Positions 12,163-44,341 of a stretch of 44,799 nucleotides of DNA are shown in pieces. A program made the translations under genes and the position numbers. Positions within the stretch are counted from its first letter, which is position 1. Each line of letters starts with the position of its first letter. The DNA is taken from IMG/VR virus record IMGVR_UViG_3300037076_000138, positions 1-44,799 of that record. One strand, written 5' to 3'. The notes under the pieces are model-generated. The model did not search any database and had not been told where the DNA came from. It saw only the letters and a program-made list of their open reading frames with translations. The stretch comes from a virus.

Positions 12163-12170
12163 TCTCTTTT

Positions 12171-12189
12171 CTCCCGCACTTGGCGGGCG
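12171..12189 (-). promoter_or_regulatory. Duplicated leader hairpin, copy 1
   Basis: On the minus strand CCCGC-CAAGT-GCGGG forms a 5-bp hairpin just before the ribosome binding site of the gene starting at 12162. The same 19 bases recur at 12885-12903 before the gene starting at 12871. Two unrelated genes with the same leader suggest a shared translational or transcriptional signal, or a promoter-leader duplication. Confidence 0.5.
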
Positions 12190-12253
12190 TGGTTGCGAAA
12201 GCGCCAACGGAGCCTAACCTGCGCCCGAGTCACCGGGCGCGGGCAAGGCGCCG

Positions 12254-12871
12254 TTAGACCATATCGTAGATGTCCTGATACTCGACGAAACTTCCGCATC
12301 CGATTCCGAGTTTGGCCTCAAGCCGCTTGGCGATGATCTGCGTTTCCTCCGGCGTGGTTTCTCGCCAGAGGCAGACACCAGCCCATATTTTCATACAATG
12401 CAAAACTAGTTTGCAGGAAACAGCCCAACCGGCCTCGATGCCATCACCGGCCTCGATGCCATCACCGGCCTGGATGCCCTCACCGGCCTGGATGCCATCA
12501 CCGGCCTCGATGCCCAAACCGGCCTTGATGCCCGAACCGGCCTCGATGCCCCAACCGGCCTGGATGCCCCAACCGGCCTGGATGCCATCACCGGCCTGGA
12601 TGCCCCAACCGGCCTGGATGCCCGAACCGGCCTCGATGCCCGAACCGGCCTTGATGCCCCAACCGGCCTTGATGCCCCAACCGGCCTGGATGCCCTCACC
12701 GGCCTCGATGCCCGAACCGGCCTCGATGCCCTTTTCGACGACGATACGCTTTTGGAGTGTGATTTTAATGTTCCCCGTCGCCGTCAAACTGCCTGCCAAC
12801 TCGAAACGCCATCCCTTGTCTACGAGACCGGGATAGTTTTTGTCCACCAACAAATCTGCTTTCGGTTCCAT
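12254..12871 (-). CDS. Hexapeptide tandem-repeat protein
   Basis: A 205-residue leftward protein. The N-terminus (EPKADLLVDKNYPGLVDKGWRFELAGSLTATGNIKITLQKRIVVEKG) leads into about 16 copies of G-I-[EQK]-A-G-[DESLW], then a cysteine-containing C-terminal domain ending in a helical tail (TTPEETQIIAKRLEAKLGI). The regular six-residue period suggests a beta-solenoid. All repeat differences at DNA level change the protein. Start chosen at 12871 because the leader hairpin and a GGGAGA site precede it. Function unknown; similar repeat blocks are known in phage hypothetical proteins. Confidence 0.75.
   Translation of the reverse strand: MEPKADLLVDKNYPGLVDKGWRFELAGSLTATGNIKITLQKRIVVEKGIEAGSGIEAGEGIQAGWGIKAGWGIKAGSGIEAGSGIQAGWGIQAGDGIQAGWGIQAGWGIEAGSGIKAGLGIEAGDGIQAGEGIQAGDGIEAGDGIEAGWAVSCKLVLHCMKIWAGVCLWRETTPEETQIIAKRLEAKLGIGCGSFVEYQDIYDMV
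12431..12730 (-). repeat. Array A: 16 tandem 18-bp units, in frame
   Basis: Sixteen complete units plus a partial one. In the coding sense a unit is GGT-x-GGC-ATC-y-GCC, where x is GAT, GAG, TTG, TCG or TGG (D/E/L/S/W) and y is GAG, CAG or AAG (E/Q/K). The other four codons are invariant, so copies differ at amino-acid-changing positions only. Confidence 0.9.
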
Positions 12872-12884
12872 TGCGTCCTGCTTT

Positions 12885-12903
12885 CTCCCGCACTTGGCGG
12901 GCG
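12885..12903 (-). promoter_or_regulatory. Duplicated leader hairpin, copy 2
   Basis: Identical 19 bases to 12171-12189, placed 13 bases before the ATG of the repeat protein. It can form the same CCCGC/GCGGG stem with a 5-base loop. Confidence 0.5.
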
Positions 12904-13123
12904 TTGGTTTCGATCTGCACTTGTCATTACTATATACATCGTAACAATGTAGCCGCAGACTACAAGATAAATCCGCGTGTTTTCGGGATAAATCTTTCAT
13001 GCCGCCATAAGTCATTATGTAGCTTGCCACTACAATCGAAAAATCTTTCAATGATTTTCGGGGGAAAACCCGCTATGAAAGATTTTTATCGCAAAATCGC
13101 CAAACAAAAGGTAAAGTGCAGCC
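12904..13123. promoter_or_regulatory. AT-rich divergent control region with palindromes
   Basis: A non-coding gap between a leftward operon and the rightward glycosyltransferase. It holds several inverted repeats: TACAT-N7-ATGTA (12935-12951), CATAA-GTCA-TTATG (13006-13019), an imperfect CGAAAAATC/GATTTTCG (13037-13060), and an 11-bp pair AAATCTTTCAT (12990-13000) / ATGAAAGATTT (13075-13085). Divergent promoters and operators are expected, but I could not pick a convincing -35/-10 pair. CTACATTG on the minus strand (12945-12952) matches the core of the late element, perhaps by chance. Confidence 0.55.
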
Positions 13124-27624: not shown

Positions 27625-28476
27625 ATGAGCATATCGGAACATCTTGAGGCTTGGTGGAACGAGATCGAAGGCGTGACGGGTTTTTACCATGCTCATGCCC
27701 CCGCGATTCACTCGATGGTCACCACGGCCTACTCCATGCTGGCGTCGATGCAGGCGCTGCACCTGGTGAACATGGCCGCGTACCCGACGCTGGCGGCTTG
27801 GCTGGCCTTCGCTGCAACCGTTTTCGGCGTGACGGGCATCGCCCTGATCCCGCACTCGCGGACTGTCCAGGCAACTCAACGGCTGGCCCGAGAGATGCAC
27901 ACGATGCTGTCGGACGTGGAGATCACCGGCGACAGGAACACCGGCAACAGGAACACCGGCAACAGGAACACCGGCAACTGGAACACCGGCGACTTGAACA
28001 CCGGCGACTTGAACACCGGCGACTGTAACACCGGCAACTGTAACACCGGCAACTGTAACACCGGCGACTGTAACACCGGCGACAGGAACACCGGGTTTTT
28101 CTGCACCGAAACCCCATCACCGACGTTTTTTGACACGCCCTGGACTGGCGGCACCCACGAACAGGCCAGAGAGTTAGTCCCCTATGTCGAATTATCCGTG
28201 GGCGCCGCCTGGACGCCGACCGAGAAAATGACGGACGCCGAAAAGAAGGCAAACCCGAATCACACGACCATCGGCGGGTTCCTCCAAGCCCAAACGCTGA
28301 CGATTCAACAGGCGTTCCCGCTGGCGTGGGCGAAGATGGACGAAGCCACGAAACAAAGATTCCTCGATCTACCGAATTTTGACGCCGAGAAGTTCCTGGC
28401 CTGTACCGGCGTTGACGTGCGGAAGCCCACTGTTGAGATCGTAGTAGATGGCGTCAAGTATCGACGAGTCGAATAA
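27625..28476 (+). CDS. Pentapeptide-repeat membrane protein
   Basis: A 283-residue protein. AAGGAG sits just before the ATG at 27625; an ATG at 27535 is in frame. The order is a helical start, a membrane segment (about residues 56-76, LAAWLAFAATVFGVTGIALIP), eleven pentapeptide repeats N-T-G-[DN]-x (residues about 103-157), FFCTETPSPTFFDTPW, and a soluble C-terminal domain. The NTG-repeat plus FF-x-TP block is known in phage hypothetical proteins. Pentapeptide repeats fold as right-handed quadrilateral helices and can mimic DNA. Function here unknown. Confidence 0.75.
   Translation: MSISEHLEAWWNEIEGVTGFYHAHAPAIHSMVTTAYSMLASMQALHLVNMAAYPTLAAWLAFAATVFGVTGIALIPHSRTVQATQRLAREMHTMLSDVEITGDRNTGNRNTGNRNTGNWNTGDLNTGDLNTGDCNTGNCNTGNCNTGDCNTGDRNTGFFCTETPSPTFFDTPWTGGTHEQARELVPYVELSVGAAWTPTEKMTDAEKKANPNHTTIGGFLQAQTLTIQQAFPLAWAKMDEATKQRFLDLPNFDAEKFLACTGVDVRKPTVEIVVDGVKYRRVE
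27931..28095 (+). repeat. Array B: 11 tandem 15-bp units, in frame
   Basis: Units RAC-x-AAC-ACC-GGC, where RAC is GAC or AAC (D/N) and x is AGG, TGG, TTG or TGT (R/W/L/C). The AAC-ACC-GGC part is identical in all units except GGG in the last. Nearly all variation is protein-changing. Confidence 0.92.
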
Positions 28477-29312: not shown

Positions 29313-29349
29313 GCCCGGTGGCGCAGAAATGGGTCACCGGGCTATTTTT
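29313..29349 (+). terminator. Rho-independent terminator closing the middle block
   Basis: GCCCGGTG (29313-29320) pairs with CACCGGGC (29335-29342), then TATTTTT. It separates the late/middle genes from the DNA-modification genes; GGAG of the next gene follows at once. Confidence 0.8.
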
Positions 29350-29358
29350 GGAGCGACG

Positions 29359-30255
29359 ATGAGCGTTGAGATTATCCAGGGCGAAGAATTAGCCATGCCG
29401 ATCAAAACCTTGGTGCCCTGGTTTGGCAACAAGCGGACACTCGCCCCGCTGATCGTGGCTGAACTCGGCAAACACCGGAGCTATTTCGAGCCGTTCTGCG
29501 GCGGCTTGGCCGTGCTGCTGGCGAAACCGGAATCGTCGCATGAGAACGTCAACGACTTGCACGGCGACCTGATTAACCTGGCCCGCGTGGTGCAAGATCC
29601 AACGATGGGCAGTAAATTCTATCGTCGGATGCGCCGCGTGTGGTTATCGGAGGAGCAATTCCTGGAGGCCCGCGAAACGATCATCGCTGGCGAGTGCCCG
29701 GCCAACGTAAATTTTGAGCGGGCCTGCGCATTCTTCTTTGTCGGCTGGTTCGGCCGCAATGGAGTGCTGGGCACGAAGTCCTGCAACTTCGGATTCTGTG
29801 CCCGATGGACGCCAAACGGCGGGCATAGCGGCAAACGGTTTCAATCAGCCGTGCAGTCAATCCCGGCCTGGCGGCAACGGATGCGACGGCTGACAATCTT
29901 GAAGCGAGACGCTTTTGAAATGCTGGCCGACATTCAGGATTGCGCAGGAACGGTCATCTATTGCGACCCGCCATATCTGGTCAAGGGTGCGAGCTACCTG
30001 CACGATTTCAAGTTGGCCGATCATCAACGGCTGGCCGATGCCGTGGCGAAGTTTAAGACGGCCCGTGTGGTCGTCAGCTACTACGATCACCCGCTATTGT
30101 CCGACCTATATCCCGGCTGGGCGCAGGTGAAGATCAACGTGACGAAGGCCCTGGCACATTGTCAGAACCGAGAAAAGAATGACACAAAGGCCGTGGAAGT
30201 CCTACTCATCAACGGCCCGTCATTCACCACTCAAGGCGATAAGCTGTTCGCATGA
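29359..30255 (+). CDS. DNA adenine methylase, D12 class (Dam-like) 1
   Basis: A 298-residue protein. Motif order is that of D12 adenine methylases: SAM-binding WFGNKRTLAPLI with FEPFCGGLAVLL (residues about 21-54), target region in the middle, catalytic DPPY (203-206, YCDPPYL), and late VVVSYYDHP. Transfers methyl to N6 of adenine in a short DNA site, likely protecting phage DNA or marking replicated DNA. Start at 29359 follows GGAG. Confidence 0.88.
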   Translation: MSVEIIQGEELAMPIKTLVPWFGNKRTLAPLIVAELGKHRSYFEPFCGGLAVLLAKPESSHENVNDLHGDLINLARVVQDPTMGSKFYRRMRRVWLSEEQFLEARETIIAGECPANVNFERACAFFFVGWFGRNGVLGTKSCNFGFCARWTPNGGHSGKRFQSAVQSIPAWRQRMRRLTILKRDAFEMLADIQDCAGTVIYCDPPYLVKGASYLHDFKLADHQRLADAVAKFKTARVVVSYYDHPLLSDLYPGWAQVKINVTKALAHCQNREKNDTKAVEVLLINGPSFTTQGDKLFA

Positions 30256-31325
30256 CCATGGAGAGCAAGATGGAACCTGTGATTTTGGACGACTTAACGG
30301 CTCCTTTTCCGTGGTTTGGCGGCAAGCGGCGTGTGGCCGATCTTGTTTGGAACGCCTTGGGGCCGGTCGACAACTACGTCGAGCCGTTCGCGGGTTCACT
30401 GGCCTGCCTCTGGGCGCGGCCCGATGACCGCTGGCAGACCGTGACCGAAACAGTCAACGACGCCGACTCGTACCTGTCGAATTTCTGGCGGGCATTGTCG
30501 GCGGACCCGGAGGAGGTAGCCCGTTGGTGCGACTGGCCGGTCAATGAGACGGACCTGCTCGCCCGCCACCTGTGGCTCGTCAATACCGGGCGCGAGCGAA
30601 TCGCCAAGATGGAAGCTGACCCGGAATTTTACGACGCGAAGGTCGCGGGCTGGTGGGTGTGGGGCATCAGTGCATGGATAGGATCGGGTTGGTGCAGCGG
30701 GAACGGACCTTGGAAGATTATCGACGGAGAGGTGCGCAAACTGCCCCACCTGGGCAACGCCGGCCTGGGCGTCAACCGCAAACTGCCCCACCTGGGCGAC
30801 GCCGGCCAGGGCGTCAACCGCCAACTGCCCCACCTGGGCAACGCCGGCCTGGGCGTCAACCGCCAACTGCCCCACCTGGGGGACTACTTCCAAGCCCTCG
30901 CCTGCCGCCTGCGCCGCGTCCGCGTCTGCTGCGGAGATTGGGCGCGGGTTGTCACCAACGGCGCGATGGCCTACGGTGACTCCGTGGGCGTGTTCCTTGA
31001 CCCCCCCTACCTCGGCGACGTGCGGACGAAAGACCTGTACCGCGTGGACGATCATTCGATCAGCGCGGCCGTCCGCGATTGGGCGATTGCTCACAGCGAC
31101 GACAAGCGGTTGCGGATCGTGCTGGCTGGTTACGCTGAGGAACATCAGGACTTCATGCCCGCAAGCTGGCGCGTCCATGAATACTCCGCGAACGCAGCCT
31201 ATCAGACAGCCAACGGTGGCGGCGTCAACGCGGCGAACCGCCACAACGAGCGGCTCTGGTTCTCGCCCCACTGCATAACTGGCGACAATGAACCCCTCCT
31301 CTCCCAGCGGGCACGGCCACTGTAA
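30252..31325 (+). CDS. DNA adenine methylase, D12-like 2, with internal repeats
   Basis: A 357-residue protein overlapping the first methylase by 4 bases. It has PWFGGKRRVADLVW and VEPFAGSLACLW (SAM site), and catalytic FLDPPYL with DPPY at 250-253. Between them, residues about 163-204 hold three copies of a 14-residue unit LPHLG[ND]AG[LQ]GVNR[KQ], in the place of the target-recognition region. The late part (RHNERLWFSPHC) resembles phage DNA methylases. ATGs at 30252, 30261 and 30270 are all possible. Confidence 0.82.
   Translation: MTMESKMEPVILDDLTAPFPWFGGKRRVADLVWNALGPVDNYVEPFAGSLACLWARPDDRWQTVTETVNDADSYLSNFWRALSADPEEVARWCDWPVNETDLLARHLWLVNTGRERIAKMEADPEFYDAKVAGWWVWGISAWIGSGWCSGNGPWKIIDGEVRKLPHLGNAGLGVNRKLPHLGDAGQGVNRQLPHLGNAGLGVNRQLPHLGDYFQALACRLRRVRVCCGDWARVVTNGAMAYGDSVGVFLDPPYLGDVRTKDLYRVDDHSISAAVRDWAIAHSDDKRLRIVLAGYAEEHQDFMPASWRVHEYSANAAYQTANGGGVNAANRHNERLWFSPHCITGDNEPLLSQRARPL
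30738..30878 (+). repeat. Array C: three 42-bp units plus partial, in a methylase
   Basis: Three units differ only at AAC/GAC (N/D), CTG/CAG (L/Q) and AAA/CAA (K/Q); every other base is identical. A fourth partial unit ends in GGG-GAC. Located between SAM-binding and catalytic motifs. Confidence 0.9.
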
Positions 31326-32146: not shown

Positions 32147-33733
32147 ATGCCGCAACATGTGATTTCCCTTAGTGTCACCAATTTCAAAAAGATCAAGGCC
32201 GCTGTCATTGACGCCGCCGGCCGTCCGGTGGTCGAGGTCGCGGGCAAGAACGCCGCTGGCAAATCATCCGCCCTGGACGCCATCGAGGCGGCGCTGGCGG
32301 GGGCGCGGGCAATCCCTGAGCGTCCTATCCGCACCGGGCAGGAAACCGCCCGGATCGTCTGCAAGCTGGACTCCTACACCGTCACCCGCACCTTCGAGGC
32401 TGACGGCACCAGCAAACTGATCGTCGTGGACAAGGACGGCAAATCCCCCGGCGGTCAGACGTTCCTCGACACCCTGACCGGCAAGGGCATCGCCTTCGAC
32501 CCGCTGGCCTTTCAGCGCATGGAGGCACCCAAGCAGCTTGAAACGCTTCGCCGCCTCGTGGGGTTGGACCTGACCGACCTTACGAACCAGATCAAGGCCC
32601 TGGATAAGGACCGCGCCGACGCCGGCCGCGACGTGACCGGCCGCAAGAAGCAGATCGACGAACTGCCGGAATACCCGGACGCGCCCACCGAGGAAGTCAA
32701 CGTCTCGGCCCTGTCCGACGAACTGAACGCAGCGAATCAGCACAACGCCGGGCTGGCGACCCTGAAGAACGTGCAGGCGCTGGCCTACACGGATTGCGAG
32801 AGGACCGCGAATCGCATTGCGGCCACCAAGACAAACCTAGACTCCGCCAATGTGAACCTGACCAACGCCCTTCGCGCCGTCGAGTTGCAACAGGACGCCG
32901 TTCATAGCATCGATGGGCAGCTTTCGGCCCCGGAGAACCAACCTGTTGACACGGCGGCTATCGAAGCCGAAATCGCCAAGCTCCAGGAGCAGCTACGAAA
33001 CGCCAACCGGCATAACGCGGACATTCTGACCCTGAATGCCGACCGGCGCGCCGCCGCCGACCTATTGGCGAACAAGGAACACGACCGAGATCGATTTACT
33101 GCCAGCATTGAAACCATCCGGCACGAACTGGACGGGCTAACCGACGTCACCAAGGAAGCGGTAATGAAATCCTTTGCCGACGCCAAGGCCGCCGTGGAAG
33201 CGTTCAAGGCCATCGACACCGCCCCGATCACCGCGAAGATCAACGGCGCCCAGGACACCAACCGCAAGGTCCAGGCCAACAAGATGAGGTCGCAGCTGGC
33301 GATGTCCTACCGCGACATGAAGGCGGCCTACGAGGAACTGGACGGCCAGATTCGCGGGCTGGTCACCCGCAAGGGAGAACTGGTCGCCGCGGCGAAGTTC
33401 CCGGTCGAGGGGCTTGGCTTCGGAGAGAACGGCGTGACGTTCCAGGGGCTGCCCTTCGAGCAAGCATCGAGCGCGGAGCAGCTTCGCGTGTCTGTGGCCA
33501 TGGCGCTGGGGCTGGCGCCCGCACGGCCCGACGCGATCAAGGTGCTGCTGGTGCGGGACGCGAGCCTGCTGGACGACAACAGCCTCAAGCTGATAACTGA
33601 CATGACGGAAGCGGCAGGGGGTCAATGCTGGTTGGAGCGGGTTTCCAACACGGACGAAGAGGAGCAACTCATCATCTCCGATGGCGGCGTGGTCATGGTT
33701 GACGGAACGGTGAAAGGAACCCAAAATGTGTAA
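32147..33733 (+). CDS. SbcC/RecF-like AAA ATPase with coiled coil
   Basis: A 528-residue protein. Walker A is GKNAAGKS (33-40) after ISLSVTNFKKIKAA. A long central coiled coil follows (about 150-400), then an ABC-like signature region EQASSAEQLRVSVAMALG and Walker B KVLLVRDASLLDDNSL. This is the design of SMC-type ATPases used in phage recombination and end processing. It lies upstream of the nuclease and annealing protein. Its last codons (ISDGGVVMVDGTVK) recur at 36054-36097. Confidence 0.85.
   Translation: MPQHVISLSVTNFKKIKAAVIDAAGRPVVEVAGKNAAGKSSALDAIEAALAGARAIPERPIRTGQETARIVCKLDSYTVTRTFEADGTSKLIVVDKDGKSPGGQTFLDTLTGKGIAFDPLAFQRMEAPKQLETLRRLVGLDLTDLTNQIKALDKDRADAGRDVTGRKKQIDELPEYPDAPTEEVNVSALSDELNAANQHNAGLATLKNVQALAYTDCERTANRIAATKTNLDSANVNLTNALRAVELQQDAVHSIDGQLSAPENQPVDTAAIEAEIAKLQEQLRNANRHNADILTLNADRRAAADLLANKEHDRDRFTASIETIRHELDGLTDVTKEAVMKSFADAKAAVEAFKAIDTAPITAKINGAQDTNRKVQANKMRSQLAMSYRDMKAAYEELDGQIRGLVTRKGELVAAAKFPVEGLGFGENGVTFQGLPFEQASSAEQLRVSVAMALGLAPARPDAIKVLLVRDASLLDDNSLKLITDMTEAAGGQCWLERVSNTDEEEQLIISDGGVVMVDGTVKGTQNV
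33672..33715 (+). repeat. Left copy of ATPase-end duplication
   Basis: These 44 bases encode the C-terminal LIISDGGVVMVDGTVK and recur at 36054-36097 with 3 mismatches. The second copy sits immediately before the nuclease gene, suggesting that ATPase and nuclease were once adjacent. Confidence 0.85.
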
Positions 33734-34661
33734 CGAACTGTCCGCGATTTTCGCTTACATCCCCGGCACGGAAGAATTGAAAATGATTCCAGGGGATGTG
33801 ACTCGCCACCACGCCGCCATGATTGCGGCGCACAGGCTGCGCGAGGGCATCGCCGGTCAAAACTACTGCCGAACCGAGTACGTCCCGAAAGATGGTGACT
33901 GGTTGGACTGCCAGTTTAAGATTGACGAAACCAATATTCCGTCGTGGGTCACGCCCGAAATCCGCGACCGCATGGAACAGATGTCGGCGCAGTTCCGCGA
34001 CCGTCTTGTTGTTAAGGGCGATTGTCCAACCATGCTCGGCGGGAAGTACATTGTCACCGACATCCGAACGGTTGAATGGGCAGACAACTGCGTTATCCTG
34101 GTTGGCCCCAAAGCCAAACTGACGATCAACAACGTAGGCAACGTGGTTTTTGGCAACGTGTACGGGTCCGTCCAGACCGGCGACGTGTACGGGTCCGTCC
34201 AGACCGGCGACGTGTACGGGTCCGGGTCCGTCCAGACCGGCGACGTGTACGGGTCCGTCAAGATCGGCGACGTGTGCGGGTACGGGTCCGTCCAGACCGG
34301 CAACGTGTCCGGGTCCGTCCAGACCGGCGACGTGTCCGGGTCCGGGTCCGTCCAGACCGGCAACGTGTACGGGTCCGTCCAGACCGGCGACGTGTCCGGG
34401 TACGTCCAGACCGGCGACGTGTACGGGTCCGGGTCCGTCAAGATCGGCGACGTGTACGGGTCCGTCCAGACCGGCGACGTGTACGGGTCCGGGTCCGTCC
34501 AGACCGGCAACGTGTCCGGGTCCGTCCAGACCGGCGACGTGTACGGGTCCGGGTCCGTCAAGATCGGCGACGTGTACGGGTCCGTCCAGACCGGCAAACG
34601 CGACAAAGCGGCCTTCGTTTGCCTCGGGGGTGTTATGCAGTCAAACGAGGATAAAAAATGA
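33726..34661 (+). CDS. Nonapeptide tandem-repeat protein
   Basis: A 311-residue protein. The first 140 residues form a soluble domain (MCNELSAIFAYIPGTEELK, WVTPEIRDRMEQMSAQFRDRLVVKGDCPTMLGGKY), then about 150 residues of repeats built from G-S-V-Q-T-G-D-V-Y with extra G-S insertions, and a short tail. The regular glycine and valine spacing suggests a beta-solenoid. The start overlaps the ATPase stop by 8 bases; the stop overlaps the truncated nuclease start. I know no function. Confidence 0.75.
   Translation: MCNELSAIFAYIPGTEELKMIPGDVTRHHAAMIAAHRLREGIAGQNYCRTEYVPKDGDWLDCQFKIDETNIPSWVTPEIRDRMEQMSAQFRDRLVVKGDCPTMLGGKYIVTDIRTVEWADNCVILVGPKAKLTINNVGNVVFGNVYGSVQTGDVYGSVQTGDVYGSGSVQTGDVYGSVKIGDVCGYGSVQTGNVSGSVQTGDVSGSGSVQTGNVYGSVQTGDVSGYVQTGDVYGSGSVKIGDVYGSVQTGDVYGSGSVQTGNVSGSVQTGDVYGSGSVKIGDVYGSVQTGKRDKAAFVCLGGVMQSNEDKK
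34152..34596 (+). repeat. Array D: 27-bp tandem units with GS insertions, in frame
   Basis: Unit GGG-TCC-GTC-CAG-ACC-GGC-RAC-GTG-TAC. Variable codons are GAC/AAC (D/N), TAC/TCC/TGC (Y/S/C), CAG-ACC/AAG-ATC (QT/KI) and the presence of an extra TCC-GGG. I find no synonymous difference between units. Confidence 0.92.
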
Positions 34662-34768
34662 AAACCATCCGCTGCTCAAGCCTCCCGATCATCGCCAAGT
34701 GCCAGGCACCCTTTCACGCGACCGGCGCCCTCCGCGTCAACCACGACGGAGGGATTGCGGCCGGCGGC
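34653..34768 (+). repeat. Left copy of 116-bp nuclease-start duplication
   Basis: Identical base for base to 36095-36210, which holds the first 37 codons of the nuclease gene. The match starts in the A run before the ATG and stops abruptly inside the codon after GGIAAGG. Confidence 0.95.
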
Positions 34769-34816
34769 GGCTTCCTGTTTTGGAGAGATGCGCAGAGCGA
34801 GGCCGCCAATGGATAA
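34658..34816 (+). pseudogene. Truncated nuclease N-terminus (52-residue reading frame)
   Basis: The first 37 residues equal those of the nuclease at 36100 (MKTIRCSSLPIIAKCQAPFH and on); the last 15 are unrelated (GFLFWRDAQSEAANG). It lacks all catalytic residues, so it is a remnant, though it is still translatable: it starts by ATGA overlap with the repeat gene and ends 8 bases into the next gene, possibly keeping translational coupling. Confidence 0.75.
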
Positions 34817-36023
34817 GACGCTCTACGAAGGGCAACGGATCTCCATGCACGATTCGATATCGCTAACCATTGCGTCGATGCAGACCTACGGCCCGCGGTT
34901 CCTGCATTGGGCCATTGCCTGGTCAGGCGGCAAGGATTCGTCGGCGACGCTGACGCTGATCGTGTACCTGATCATCGTCAAGAAAATCCCATGCCCCAAA
35001 TCGCTTACGGTTCTGTACGCGGACACGCGGTTGGAACTTCCGCCCCTGGTGCAGGCCGCCGCTGACATGCGGGCAGAGTTGCTGGAATGCAAAGGGCAAC
35101 TGGCCGCGATGGGTTGCGAACTGACCGTGTTGACCGTCCTGCCCGATCTGGATCATCGGTTCTTCACCTACATGTTCGGACGGGGCGTGCCCACGCCCGG
35201 GGCACACTTCCGCTGGTGCACCGGGATGCTCAAAATCACGCCAATGGAACAGGCCTTGCGCGATCTTCATGCAGCGAAGTTCGCCGGCGGGGCTGGAAAG
35301 TTTCTGACGATCACCGGCGTTCGACAGGGCGAGTCGGCCATGCGGGACGGTCGCATCGCGATGTCTTGCGGACGCGATGGTGCGGAGTGCGGGCAGGGCT
35401 GGTATCAGGAGACGCTGCAAAACGAGATCAGCGACACGCTGGCCCCGCTGCTGCACTGGCGGGTCTGCCACATCTGGGAGTGGCTCAAGCACTGGGCCCC
35501 GGCATCGGAGTTCGGCGACTGGTCCACGGCGACGATTGCCGACGCTTACGGCGGCGACGAAGCGGAGGAAATCAACGCCCGCACGGGCTGCATCTGTTGT
35601 CCCGTGGCCAGTCAGGACAAGGCCCTGAACGCCATCCTGAAAAATCCATCATGGTCATACCTTGCCCCGCTGCTGGAACTACGCGACCTGTTCGAGGAAA
35701 TGCGACTGGCAAAGCATCGTCTGCGAAAGCCGCCGGGAGAAAAGAACAGCGACGGTCGAAAGGTCCGCAATCAGGCCCGAAAGGGGCCGCTCGTGTTCGA
35801 GGCCCGGCGGATGGGCCTGGAACGAGTGCTGGAAATCCAGGGCCGCGTCAATGCGGCGGCAGAGGAACAGCATCGACCGACGGTGAGCCTCATCAACGCG
35901 GACGAGTGGCGGCACATCGAAGAACTGATTGACGCCGGCACATGGCCGTCGAAATGGACCGGCAACGAACCATCGGGCGAATGCCCGGAACATCTGGAGT
36001 TGTTTGAGGAGTGCCAGGCGTGA
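34809..36023 (+). CDS. DndC / PAPS-reductase-like PP-loop enzyme
   Basis: A 404-residue protein. PP-loop WSGGKDSSATL (SGGKDS 39-44), then HFRWCTGMLKITP, TGVRQGESAMRDG, and a cysteine cluster ARTGCICCPVAS. These motifs fit the DndC/PAPS-reductase superfamily. DndC activates sulfur for DNA phosphorothioation together with other Dnd proteins, none of which I see here. Possible jobs are DNA or tRNA sulfur chemistry, or an unrelated nucleotidyl reaction. The gene lies inside the duplication-flanked cassette. Confidence 0.78.
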   Translation: MDKTLYEGQRISMHDSISLTIASMQTYGPRFLHWAIAWSGGKDSSATLTLIVYLIIVKKIPCPKSLTVLYADTRLELPPLVQAAADMRAELLECKGQLAAMGCELTVLTVLPDLDHRFFTYMFGRGVPTPGAHFRWCTGMLKITPMEQALRDLHAAKFAGGAGKFLTITGVRQGESAMRDGRIAMSCGRDGAECGQGWYQETLQNEISDTLAPLLHWRVCHIWEWLKHWAPASEFGDWSTATIADAYGGDEAEEINARTGCICCPVASQDKALNAILKNPSWSYLAPLLELRDLFEEMRLAKHRLRKPPGEKNSDGRKVRNQARKGPLVFEARRMGLERVLEIQGRVNAAAEEQHRPTVSLINADEWRHIEELIDAGTWPSKWTGNEPSGECPEHLELFEECQA

Positions 36024-36103
36024 ATAAGACGAAAATCCAAGAGGACGCGCTGGTCATCTCCGAAGGCGGCGTGGTCATGGTCGATGGAACGGTGAAAAAA
36101 TGA
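36020..36103 (+). pseudogene. Remnant of the ATPase C-terminus
   Basis: A GTG overlapping the previous stop opens 27 codons ending in ALVISEGGVVMVDGTVKK and a TGA that overlaps the nuclease ATG. The last 15 residues match the end of the ATPase at 33733. It has no domain of its own; it may persist as a coupling leader for the nuclease. Confidence 0.65.
36054..36097 (+). repeat. Right copy of ATPase-end duplication
   Basis: Matches 33672-33715 with 41 of 44 bases. Two of the three differences are synonymous. Together with the adjoining perfect nuclease-start repeat it marks the right edge of the inserted cassette. Confidence 0.85.
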
Positions 36104-36210
36104 AAACCATCCGCTGCTCAAGCCTCCCGATCATCGCCAAGTGCCAGGCACCCTTTCACGCGACCGGCGCCCTCCGCGTCAACCACGACGGAGGGATTGC
36201 GGCCGGCGGC
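36095..36210 (+). repeat. Right copy of 116-bp nuclease-start duplication
   Basis: The intact version in its gene; identical to 34653-34768. Identity over 116 bases, including third positions, implies a recent event. Confidence 0.95.
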
Positions 36211-37218: not shown

Positions 37219-38118
37219 ATGGCAGAGGAAAAACCGACAGCGTTAGCGAAGTGGGCAGCGGCAGGACAGGGCCTGGAGAAGATCGCCAGCGAGTGCATCG
37301 CCCTTGTCCGGGCGGACAACAGCGGGCGTTTCGGCAAGGCGTTCGCCCTGGCGCAGGGTATCACTTCCCTCCGCAACGCGATTACCCACGAGCACATGGC
37401 CGGCGTCATGCCCCTCCAGGGCGTCCCCCTGGGCTTTATGACCGACAAGGACAAGGAGAACGGCTACCCGGAGAACATCGTCAAGGACGTAGTGATTGAG
37501 GCTGTGCTGAACGACGTACCCCTCGTCGGCAACTGCTTCAATATCATCGCCGGGCGGTTCTACGTCACAAAGAACGGCTGCTTTCATAAGGTTCTGAACT
37601 TTCCAGGGTTGACCGACCTGATGCTCGACTTCGGCGTACCGGAGATCAAGGGCGACAAGGGCGCCCTGGTCAACTGCAAAGCGCGATGGGCCTTGAACGG
37701 CAAGGCCGGGGAACTATCGGCCCTGATCCCGATCCGCGTCAACAGCGGCATGGGCGCCGACGCGATTGTCGGCAAGGCGACCCGGAAGCTGCTGGCCCGC
37801 GTCCACGACCGGCTGACGGGCACCCAGAACAGCTTGCCAGAGGGCGAGGTTGACGACCTGGACGCCAGGCACGTCAACGCTACGGTCCTGCAAAACACCA
37901 ACGGCGGCAAGATGGGATTCGGCGGTAACAAGCCCATCGGTGAAGTGCTTCCCATTCCAGGCCAGTCCTCCGAGACCATCGGACCCGGCGGCGAGGTCAT
38001 CGAGCGGACCCCGGAGACCGACGCCCCCACGCCCGTCCAGCATGACGCCACCGGCGCGGAACTGCCCCAGGATGCGCCGGCGGATGACGTGAACAAACTC
38101 TTCCCGCCCGGAACGTAG
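37219..38118 (+). CDS. RecT-like single-strand annealing protein
   Basis: A 299-residue protein. Core segments are ECIALVRADNSGRFGKAFALAQGI, the central CFNIIAGRFYVTKNGCFHKVLN, ALIPIRVNSGMGADAIVGKATRKLLARVHDRLTG near the end of the fold, and an acidic disordered tail ending VNKLFPPGT. These fit RecT/Redbeta-type annealing proteins, which pair with an exonuclease, here the gene just upstream. AAGGCAG precedes the ATG. Confidence 0.75.
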   Translation: MAEEKPTALAKWAAAGQGLEKIASECIALVRADNSGRFGKAFALAQGITSLRNAITHEHMAGVMPLQGVPLGFMTDKDKENGYPENIVKDVVIEAVLNDVPLVGNCFNIIAGRFYVTKNGCFHKVLNFPGLTDLMLDFGVPEIKGDKGALVNCKARWALNGKAGELSALIPIRVNSGMGADAIVGKATRKLLARVHDRLTGTQNSLPEGEVDDLDARHVNATVLQNTNGGKMGFGGNKPIGEVLPIPGQSSETIGPGGEVIERTPETDAPTPVQHDATGAELPQDAPADDVNKLFPPGT

Positions 38119-38230: not shown

Positions 38231-38235
38231 CGAAT

Positions 38236-38325
38236 GCGGCGGTAGCTCAGTGGTAGAGCGTGCGACGTGGGTTTCTAATCCTTTCTTCCGTCGCGAGGTC
38301 GCAGGTCCGAATCCTGCCCGCCGCA
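38236..38325 (+). tRNA. tRNA with enlarged anticodon arm, possibly Arg(UCU)
   Basis: Acceptor GCGGCGG/CCGCCGC, D-arm GCTC-AGTGGTA-GAGC, T-arm GCAGG-TCCGAAT-CCTGC, variable loop AGGTC and discriminator A are all canonical. The anticodon stem TGCGA/TCGCG (TGCGAC/GTCGCG if extended) encloses 25 bases instead of 7. Inside lies GGG-TTTCTAA-TCC, like the loop of tRNA-Arg(TCT). The extra 18 bases could be an intron-like insertion or an extended stem. CCA is not encoded. It may be functional, processed, or degenerate. Confidence 0.7.
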
Positions 38326-38378
38326 ATGATTCACCCGGCTCGTCGCCGGAAACAGGCCAACAACACAGGAGAAAAAAC

Positions 38379-41417: not shown

Positions 41418-42255
41418 GAACAACCGCACGCGCGAACTTAAGGTGCTGACCTGGGTTCCCATGCCCAATAAACACGACGGCGACGGCTACACCGAACTCC
41501 TTGACCATGCTGACGGCGCCGCCCATTACGGTGTCTGGGCCATTCTGGTACAAATCGCAAGCAAGTGCGACCCTCGCGGCACCCTCCTGCGGGATGTCCG
41601 TCGCGATCCCGCACCCGCCTGCGGCGATCCCGCACCCTCCTGCGGCGATCCCGCACCCGCCTGCGAGGGGGGTAAAACAGTGTTGACCGAACAGGCGAAC
41701 GGTCAAATACCACACGATTTCGCCTCTCTGTCCAGAATGAGCCGAATACCCCAAAAGGTAATCTCGGCTGCAATACCTCGGCTATTGCAAATTGGTTGGT
41801 TAGAGCAAGTTATAGAAATCCCGCAGGAAGATGCGACCGCGCCGCACTTTAGTGCGCCACCGTCGCAGGGAAGTGCCTCTGAATGGAATGGAATGGAAGG
41901 GAAGGGAATAGAAGAGAAACCCCCTACCCCCAAAGGGGGTGTCGCGGCGGCTTCCGTTGAAGACCCGGAGAAGATTCCAGAATCCATCGACACTCCGGAG
42001 TTCCGGATTGCATGGTACGACTGGATCGCGGACAAGAAAGACCGCAAGGAAAGACTCACCCCCCGCGCCCGTAAGACGCAACTGGAACGCCTGGGGAAAT
42101 TCGACGCGCCGACGGCAATCGCCATGATCCAGCAGAGCATCACGAACGCTTGGAAGGGGATTTTTGAACTCAAGACCGACCGGCCTGGCGGCAACGGGCA
42201 GGGCGTGGCGAACTGGGACGGCCTCAAACCGGGCGAAAGGCCCTTCATGTCATGA
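41377..42255 (+). CDS. Replication initiation protein
   Basis: A 292-residue protein. The N-terminal part (YRIKDWHVNFENNRTRELKVLTWVPMPNKHDG, AAHYGVWAILVQIASKC, LSRMSRIPQKVISAAIPRLLQIGWLE) is a winged-helix pattern common to phage O-like/DnaT-like initiators. The linker is low-complexity with three repeats of DPAP-x-CG, and the C-terminal helical part (RKTQLERLGKFDAPTAIAMIQQSI) may bind helicase. AAGGAGCGC precedes ATG 41377. The stop overlaps the dnaB-like gene, as in initiator-helicase pairs. Confidence 0.75.
   Translation: MTTYRIKDWHVNFENNRTRELKVLTWVPMPNKHDGDGYTELLDHADGAAHYGVWAILVQIASKCDPRGTLLRDVRRDPAPACGDPAPSCGDPAPACEGGKTVLTEQANGQIPHDFASLSRMSRIPQKVISAAIPRLLQIGWLEQVIEIPQEDATAPHFSAPPSQGSASEWNGMEGKGIEEKPPTPKGGVAAASVEDPEKIPESIDTPEFRIAWYDWIADKKDRKERLTPRARKTQLERLGKFDAPTAIAMIQQSITNAWKGIFELKTDRPGGNGQGVANWDGLKPGERPFMS
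41605..41667 (+). repeat. Array E: three 21-bp units in the initiator linker
   Basis: Units GAT-CCC-GCA-CCC-GCC-TGC-GGC; the middle unit has TCC for GCC (Ala to Ser) and the last ends in GAG (Gly to Glu). Again, differences change amino acids only. Confidence 0.85.
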
Positions 42256-43592
42256 CCGATCTTCCCCAACGAATCCCGCCGCAGAGCATCGAGGCCGAAA
42301 TGTGCCTCCTTGGTTCGATGCTATTGGACCCAACCGGCACGGCCGCAATCGCCTCCACGGTGAACGTCGGCCAATTCTACCGGCCTGCTCACGGCCTGGT
42401 CTTTACCGCCATCCTCGCCCTCCAGCGGGCCAGCAGCCCGGTTGACATCGTTTTTGTCCGCAACGAACTGGAGCGAACCGGTAATCTCGCCAAGGTGGGC
42501 GACGTCGAGTACATCGTTCGGCTTGCTGAGGGGGTGCCCAATGCCGCCAACGCCGAATACTACGCGAAGATCGTCACCGAGAAGGCTACCCTGCGCGAGA
42601 TAATCGTGATGGGAAATTCGCTGTCATCGGAAGCCTTCGAGCCTGGCGCCGATGTGGAGGAACTCATCCGTCGCGCACGCGACAAGGTGTACAGCCTGAC
42701 TACGGGCGAAACGAGCAAGGCCAGCGCAGTCGATATGTGGCGGGCGGCGGAAGAGGCGGCAAAGCGGGCCGATGACATCAAGGCCGGATTGATCGCGCCC
42801 GGTCTGCTCACGGGTATCCCCCGCGTCGACCAGGTGACTGGCGGCATGCAGCCGGGCGACCTGTGGGTTTTGGGTGGCAGCACGAGTTCGGGCAAGACTG
42901 CCCTGGCCGTCGAATTCGCTTGCAACACGGCGGAGGCCGGCGAGGGCGCCCTGTGCATTTCAGCGGAGATGACCCGCCACCAATACGCGAACCGAGTAAT
43001 GCAGAGCCGGGGACAGATTGACGGCTGGGCGCTTCGCACCGGCGAACTGAATGACTGGCAGCGGCAGACCCGCGTTGAAATAATCGAGCAACTAAAAACC
43101 CGGCACTTCGCGATTGTGGACCGAAGCCAAAACATGGCGGAGGTCCAGGCGCACGCGCAGGTGCTTGGTATGCGATGGGGCAGGTGCCCGCGGTTGATCG
43201 TGGTCGATTACCTCCAGTTGATGCGTTCGATGGGCGGCGATAACCGGGCGCAGGAAGTCAGCGGCATCGCCTGGGCCTGCAAGGAAATGGCCATGAAGCT
43301 GGAATGTTCCGTGCTGCTGCTGTCGCAACTGGACAGGACGGCGACGAAGGGGCACTCCGGACATCCCACGATTCACAACCTGAAAGAATCGGGCGACATC
43401 GAAAATCACGCGAACGTGATCCTGCTGATGCACCGCCTCAAAGACGATCTGGATTTGGACGGCACGACGCCCGTGCATCTCCGCGTAGCCAAAAGCCGAG
43501 ATGGAGAGCGTACCCCGTGGCCGCCTGAGAATGGCGGAATCTCCCTGCGCTTCAGGCCGCGATTCACTTTGTTCGAGAAGGAGTTAACATGA
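42252..43592 (+). CDS. dnaB: Replicative DNA helicase (DnaB family)
   Basis: A 446-residue protein, typical DnaB length. N-terminal PPQSIEAEMCLLGSMLLDPTGTAAIAS, RecA-like core with Walker A GGSTSSGKT (about 207-215), SAEMTRHQYANRVM, Walker B LIVVDYLQLM, and the arginine-finger region LKESGDIENHANVILLMHR. It unwinds the fork as a hexamer. Coupled by ATGA to the initiator. Confidence 0.95.
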   Translation: MTDLPQRIPPQSIEAEMCLLGSMLLDPTGTAAIASTVNVGQFYRPAHGLVFTAILALQRASSPVDIVFVRNELERTGNLAKVGDVEYIVRLAEGVPNAANAEYYAKIVTEKATLREIIVMGNSLSSEAFEPGADVEELIRRARDKVYSLTTGETSKASAVDMWRAAEEAAKRADDIKAGLIAPGLLTGIPRVDQVTGGMQPGDLWVLGGSTSSGKTALAVEFACNTAEAGEGALCISAEMTRHQYANRVMQSRGQIDGWALRTGELNDWQRQTRVEIIEQLKTRHFAIVDRSQNMAEVQAHAQVLGMRWGRCPRLIVVDYLQLMRSMGGDNRAQEVSGIAWACKEMAMKLECSVLLLSQLDRTATKGHSGHPTIHNLKESGDIENHANVILLMHRLKDDLDLDGTTPVHLRVAKSRDGERTPWPPENGGISLRFRPRFTLFEKELT

Positions 43593-44341
43593 ACCGAACC
43601 GGAATACCCTACCTCGATTTTTGTTGGAACCCCTGCGGCTACGGCTGCTCAAACATCTGCAACTGCCCGACGTGCTGGGCGCGCAGACAGGCAACACAGC
43701 CTGGTCCGACGCAGCCGACCTGCCCAGACTGCCGCGCGTTCAAGGTCCACTTCCACCCGGAGCGGCTGGAGGGCAAACAGGCGCCGGCCTCGCGCAAGAA
43801 ACCGGCTGTGATCGGCGTGGCGTTCCTTGGCGACCTGTTCGACAAGGTGCGGCCGCCGGAACAAATAGAATCCACGCTTCACGCAGTAGCGGATTCGCCA
43901 TGGCACACGTTCGTTTTCCTGACCCAGCAATACGAGCGGGCGTCCAAATGGGCGTCGGCATGGTGGGCATACAACGCCAGGGGCAATGGCTGGCGATGGG
44001 GAACCACTTGTAAAAATCAGGATCAATTCGCCGCCGCAAGCGAGCATTTTGGCCGAGTCCCCCGCTGGTGGGTTTCCGCCGAGCCGCTGCAAGGCCCGAT
44101 CCATCCCGGTGCGCGCGTGCCCGAGGGGATCATCATCGGCTGCGATAACCAAGTGGCCGCGCCGTACAACATCGAGTGGGTCCGCGAGACGGCGCTGGCA
44201 TTTGCGGTTGCCGGGTCAAAGGCCTACATCAAGCAGCTTTGGTTGCCACGCGGGGGTTGCACGTTCCTATCGACGAACCCAGCAGAGTTCCCCGCCGACC
44301 TTCGCTTACGCGACCTGCCCTGGACGCTGACGATGGAATAA
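43589..44341 (+). CDS. DUF5131 (phage Gp37/Gp68) family protein
   Basis: A 250-residue protein. WNPCGYGCSNICNCPTCWARR, FKVHFHPERLEG, GVAFLGDLFDKVRPPEQIES, TFVFLTQQYERA, WRWGTTCKNQDQF, RWWVSAEPLQGPI and IIIGCDNQ follow the Gp37/Gp68 family in order. The Cys cluster resembles radical-SAM sites; activity of the family is not established as far as I know. Linked to the helicase by ATGA overlap. Confidence 0.82.
   Translation: MNRTGIPYLDFCWNPCGYGCSNICNCPTCWARRQATQPGPTQPTCPDCRAFKVHFHPERLEGKQAPASRKKPAVIGVAFLGDLFDKVRPPEQIESTLHAVADSPWHTFVFLTQQYERASKWASAWWAYNARGNGWRWGTTCKNQDQFAAASEHFGRVPRWWVSAEPLQGPIHPGARVPEGIIIGCDNQVAAPYNIEWVRETALAFAVAGSKAYIKQLWLPRGGCTFLSTNPAEFPADLRLRDLPWTLTME

Follow-up and report, generated by a model that had tools for sequence, protein, structure and literature searches.

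A DndC-like gene between duplicated edges of an ATPase gene and a nuclease gene in an uncultured tailed phage: a mosaic junction probably left by two or more recombination events

How does an extra gene enter a tightly packed phage operon, and in how many steps? Gene entries of this kind are usually invisible, because the joints have worn away. The locus described here lies in an IMG/VR virus record of 44,799 bases from an uncultured bacterial virus, which we refer to as the window. In the replication/recombination region of a tailed phage, a repeat gene (R) and a DndC-like gene lie between an ATPase gene and a nuclease gene, and the edges of both of these neighbours are present twice (Table 1). 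Since both edges are still readable, and one of them is perfect, the number and order of the events can be reasoned about and the products of a loss can be stated to the base.

Table 1. Features of the ATPase-nuclease region, in window coordinates
Feature	Position	Strand	Evidence or remark
SbcC/RecF-type AAA ATPase gene, 528 aa	32147..33733	+	phrog_1499 1e-79, AAA_23 2.6e-8
Copy alpha' of the ATPase 3' end; 41 of 44 bases shared with alpha'' (36054-36097)	33672..33715	+	
R, repeat gene, 311 aa	33726..34661	+	Position exactly between alpha' and beta-1
Nuclease 5' end copy beta-1, 116/116 identical to 36095-36210	34653..34768	+	
52-aa ORF: 37 nuclease codons and a 15-residue foreign tail (GFLFWRDAQSEAANG)	34658..34816	+	
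DndC-like PP-loop ATPase / "PAPS reductase" gene, 404 aa, apparently intact	34809..36023	+	phrog_12882, PF01507
27-aa micro-ORF, corresponding to the C-terminal end of another ATPase allele (alpha'')	36020..36103	+	Reads VNKTKIQEDALVISEGGVVMVDGTVKK, then stop
Nuclease 5' end copy beta-2, within the intact nuclease gene	36095..36210	+	
PD-(D/E)XK exonuclease gene, intact, 367 aa	36100..37203	+	DUF2800 3e-18, PDDEXK_1 2.8e-10, phrog_69 exonuclease 1.2e-24
ORF adjoining the nuclease, guessed at first reading to encode a RecT-type annealing protein	37219..38118	+	No library match

The two repeats differ in divergence. The start of the nuclease gene occurs twice with all 116 bases identical, the match ending abruptly on both sides, and the end of the ATPase gene occurs twice with 41 of 44 bases identical (93%). 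We refer to the left and right ATPase ends as alpha' and alpha'' and to the nuclease-start copies as beta. A first-pass annotation made from the letters alone had already described both repeats, and hence copied flanks, and our comparison reproduces them base for base. Extending the ATPase-end match leftward to 33657/36039 lowers it to 50 of 59 bases. A chance origin of the repeats is excluded: self-BLAST gives E values of 9e-55 for the beta repeat and 2e-11 for the alpha repeat, and a 30-base nuclease-start probe, searched with up to three mismatches, hit the two beta sites only and nothing in 100 shuffles. The unequal divergence of the two duplications that the annotation reported is also seen in the counts, with 0/116 differences in beta versus 3/44 in alpha (Fisher p = 0.02), a modest contrast, or versus 9/59 over the extended match (p = 4e-5). 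The differences between alpha' and alpha'' are synonymous or mostly conservative (D/E, I/V, E/D, E/Q), plus one Q/A; this suggests that they built up while both ends belonged to working ATPases and not in a dead copy, in a sample that at 20 codons is small.

The gene order is alpha'-R-beta-DndC-alpha''-beta-nuclease, and no reading frame in the region is broken. Five successive stop/start overlaps, of 8, 4, 8, 4 and 4 nt, lead from the ATPase to the nuclease: the stop of the ATPase, whose C-terminal end reads DGGVVMVDGTVKGTQNV, extends 8 nt into R; the stop of the 52-aa ORF overlaps the DndC start by 8 nt (ATGGATAA); and the 27-aa micro-ORF shares GTGA with the DndC stop and ATGA with the nuclease start. 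The 15-residue tail that precedes DndC had no match among the fetched DndC loci. In the right-hand copy alpha'' and beta are contiguous, fused via the ATGA overlap, and within the window the ATPase-nuclease pair is fused in this copy only. A pair of ATPase and nuclease genes lying side by side in the ancestor would have the same appearance.

The most economical history, and in our judgement the probable one, is that two or more recombination events left a mosaic junction: the DndC-like gene entered with a duplication, and a diverged ATPase together with R afterwards took the place of the left flank. In the first step, the DndC-like gene, taking along roughly 40 bp from what used to be its upstream neighbour, would have entered a junction at which ATPase and nuclease were directly adjacent. 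This would have left about 190 bp on both sides (the last ~27 ATPase codons and the first 37 nuclease codons, that is, alpha'' plus beta), either by an out-of-register crossover between two related genomes or by a single crossover with a circular molecule. In the second step, the left flank would have been swapped for R and a diverged allele of the ATPase by an exchange at the left beta or within it, and alpha'' (ending in NKTKIQEDALVISEGGVVMVDGTVKK) would remain as a fossil of the replaced ATPase. On this history the beta copies are identical because both derive from the first event; gene conversion between the two copies would equally explain their identity. The gene-edge junctions would have survived because the stop/start overlaps were kept and neither the ATPase nor the nuclease was disrupted.

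The first-pass annotation had likewise started from an ancestral ATPase-nuclease junction split by an insertion, and the insertion, the copied edges and the alpha''-beta ATGA fusion are all in keeping with that part of its account. What does not stand is a single event for both genes, in which one cassette of R plus DndC was inserted with both flanks copied at once. Such a cassette would account for both genes lying between a complete ATPase and a complete nuclease, but it predicts the order alpha-beta-(R-DndC)-alpha-beta and not the observed alpha-R-beta-DndC-alpha-beta. A nuclease-start copy separates R from DndC, and R lies exactly between an ATPase end and a nuclease start, which does not fit a one-cassette insertion and calls for at least two events; rejected on gene order, this reading keeps a very slight probability. 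The observed order would also result if the ATPase-nuclease junction had first been duplicated in tandem within the genome, R and DndC had then been inserted independently into the two joints, and beta had been kept identical by gene conversion. The shared sequence of the two copies fits this. Two insertions plus conversion are needed, however, to obtain beta at 100% next to alpha at 93% decaying to 85%, and the alpha'/alpha'' changes, being mostly synonymous or conservative, are not the decay of a pseudogene; we consider this sequence of events unlikely.

A different kind of doubt concerns the assembly. Reads of two phage strains, one with ATPase-R-nuclease and one carrying DndC, or of a small circle sharing the 116 bp, might have been merged at the repeat. 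An exact repeat of 116 bp can mislead an assembly built on short k-mers, and the ends of the contig (1-280 and 44520-44799) overlap without gaps at only 97.1% identity, which points to mixed variants or end errors; the eight substitutions are mostly nonsynonymous, and six fall within the first 91 bp. The record is probably a genome close to complete, either circularly permuted or terminally redundant, that failed to close because strains were mixed in the assembly or because its ends contain errors. A repeat-driven error, however, only swaps partners at the repeat. Alone it could not have produced the junctions 34768/34769 (from nuclease codon 37 into the DndC leader) and 36019/36020 (DndC end into ATPase end), because both lead into unique sequence and must therefore exist in some molecule, and the frames across the region are intact with their stop/start overlaps. 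An artefact thus strikes us as improbable. It is also doubtful that the edges were kept for a function, with the 52-aa and 27-aa ORFs serving as translational adaptors by which ribosomes are handed on from R to DndC and from there to the nuclease. The five overlaps in a row would suit such a role, as would the purine-rich, Shine-Dalgarno-like stretches that can be read directly ahead of the starts, but this phage has 4-nt overlaps at five more gene pairs; as a common feature they were perhaps inherited or tolerated rather than selected.

Because no relative with both ATPase and nuclease was found, the polarity of the insertion rests on the internal evidence of the window. Megablast against phages and IMG/VR scans with the nuclease, ATPase and R proteins returned no close relative, and a degenerate pattern for the ATPase end had zero matches. 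Profile scans detected only distant ATPases (up to 46% identity in the best segment) and nucleases (up to 35%), never both in one fetched locus, so the search that the annotation had proposed, for relatives with adjacent ATPase and nuclease genes, yielded no such locus, and the searches brought up no genome in which the site is empty or half filled. Contigs with related terminases (72-76% identity), most of them partial, have none of the genes of this junction. A single one extends well past the terminase genes on the upstream side, by 12.8 kb; its early region differs, having nothing detectable in common with that of the window. A survey of 268 phage loci (3.37 Mb) found no second case in which a gene end and the start of the next gene were both copied.

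What is the inserted gene? The labels "DndC-like" and "nuclease", assigned at first reading, are backed by profile matches. The DndC-like protein matches phrog_12882 over the full length of the profile (E 2.6e-151, residues 23-411 of the extended ORF) and PF01507 at 2.7e-8. Its score against TIGR03183 is 122.8 bits (E 1.7e-35), far under the 290.4-bit DndC cut-off, and among the neighbouring proteins tested there were no Dnd or Ssp partners (DndB/DndD/DndE, SspABC) apart from a generic 1e-4 DndD match of the ATPase. We therefore rejected its assignment as the DndC of a Dnd phosphorothioation system; it is a member of a common phage PP-loop family. The CysH equivalog, the assimilatory PAPS reductase, is absent among NCBIfam matches up to E 0.01. 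The SGGKDS P-loop is invariant across 35 homologs, and an AlphaFold model built with these homologs has a mean pLDDT of 76.5. Its best PDB matches include ATP sulfurylase CysD, the NcsA thiolase, LarE and PAPS reductase, with TM-scores by query length that are low (0.2-0.34), and the modelled fold suggests an enzyme that uses ATP for adenylation of, or sulfur transfer to, a nucleic acid or a small molecule. For such a protein in Verrucomicrobia phage P8625, the authors of the genome suggested a role in DNA metabolism and did not exclude sulfate metabolism (PMC4642752).

Relatives of this protein are widespread. A scan of viral contigs yielded 325 related loci, among which the top 80 show about 54-60% identity in the best segment. 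These relatives occur in many unrelated contexts, and at least 18 of 84 loci have a DNA methyltransferase no farther than 1.5 kb away. The phrog_12882 relatives in Pseudomonas phages phiC725A and Dobby and in Rhizobium phage RR1-A are 50-62% identical over most of the protein and share with it the motifs SGGKDS, RWCT, ECGQGW and CxxC, but none has the neighbours found in the window or the edge duplication. Flanking repeats occur at 6 of 80 DndC-like loci versus 9 of 156 random controls. With no such enrichment and with contexts so varied, the repeats do not come with the DndC gene itself. The gene has the same base composition and codon usage as the rest of the phage, and thus offers no independent sign of foreignness. 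A PAPS-reductase gene is known to be variably present among close Basilisk-like phages (PMC6145125). At two other loci, L067 and L074, a repeat of 81-102 bp (CCTTGATCCGGCCCCATGCCGGGCC...) stands on both sides of a DndC-containing block (L074: 7849-7929 and 11662-11742); it is intergenic and of a different kind from the repeats of the window.

Which agent could have made these exchanges? The insert consists of the DndC-like gene and edge fragments only, with no transposase, homing endonuclease or integrase, and R has no domain of these types either. Among the proteins tested, the earlier remark that no transposase is visible holds, and we rejected transposition. Recombination between related phages is a plausible agent. 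The exonuclease gene belongs to the phrog_69 family, which makes a phage recombination module plausible; the ORF next door to it had no match in Pfam, PHROGs, NCBIfam, PADLOC, the PDB or the phage collection. Just past these genes lies a tRNA-Arg gene (anticodon TCT, 38235-38326), and farther along, at 43589-44341, a DUF5131/phrog_2045 protein is encoded that also matches the PADLOC candidate defence models PDC-M41B and PDC-M30B (E ~1e-14 and 2e-13).

Several known systems resemble this locus in part. In the illegitimate-recombination or "moron" model of tailed phages, an extra gene lies between two genes with its junctions at gene edges, and the window shows the same wedged-in gene and the same placement of the junctions. 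Morons usually have no flanking duplication; unlike them, the insert described here has the edges of both neighbours copied. Integrative elements may insert into a gene and bring a replacement gene end, as phage 21 does in icd and SXT in prfC. The likeness is a displaced fragment of the target gene on one side and an intact gene on the other, but no integrase or att core was found in the window, the displaced edges belong to two different genes, and just 1.3 kb of insert separates the 116-bp repeats. A further parallel is the mosaicism produced by relaxed homologous recombination, in which phage modules are exchanged via short or diverged homology, since Rad52-like phage recombinases efficiently recombine both (PMC3945230). 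Those exchanges are homologous replacements at matched positions, whereas the duplicated edges in the window imply that at least one exchange was out of register; and those systems use Rad52-like recombinases, whereas the Rad52/RecT-type gene of the window is putative. Overall, we regard the locus as real and mostly ordinary mosaicism with an unusually legible scar.

The insert is notable mainly because it could in principle be lost again without damage. In silico removal between the beta copies (1442 bp) leaves the nuclease intact, with a clean ATGA overlap and R before it; removal between the alpha copies (2382 bp) also leaves an intact nuclease and a clean ATGA overlap, preceded by an ATPase that ends in DGTVKK and a stop. 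Clean loss across either repeat is a prediction from the repeat structure and no evidence of switching. One could go further and suppose that duplicated edges act as integrase-free, reversible docking sites, where cargo enters an overlapping gene pair out of register, stop/start coupling is kept and either removal is clean, with populations switching among ATPase-nuclease, ATPase-R-nuclease and ATPase-R-DndC-nuclease. We give this idea little credence at present; should population data reveal all three of the predicted forms, the result would be a simple integrase-free route for the gain and loss of phage accessory genes.

The other gene between the ATPase and the nuclease, R, encodes an N-terminal region followed by alternating 27/33-nt tandem repeats. 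AlphaFold predicts the repeats to form a beta-solenoid (pLDDT mostly >90, at about residues 170-280), confidently even from the single sequence. No relative of the N-terminal domain was found, a structure search gave weak matches only, and the two matches of the protein in IMG/VR are due to chance and lie inside an intein-rich portal protein. As a separate observation, two loci (L270:1-7044 and L271:1-7044, IMG/VR 3300035701_000417 and 3300031707_000100) carry a T4-like portal ORF of about 2,350 codons that is interrupted by five intein splicing domains along with three HNH endonuclease domains; so many inteins in a single phage protein are unusual.

Tandem-repeat arrays occur at five places in this 45-kb phage: 12423-12732, 27924-28094, 30735-30880, 34152-34595 and 41603-41665, with periods of 18, 15 (pentapeptide NTGDx), 42, 27/33 and 21 nt, respectively. 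The third is an in-frame repeat in the middle of a D12-type adenine methyltransferase gene (30252-31325), with 3.5 copies of a 14-residue unit, RKLPHLGNAGLGVN; this gene lies directly downstream of a second D12 methyltransferase gene (29329-30255). The 18-nt array is bracketed by a near-identical 32-nt pair (TTTCTCCCGCACTTGGCGGGCGT...) at 12168-12198 and 12882-12913, possibly repeated intergenic or regulatory elements.
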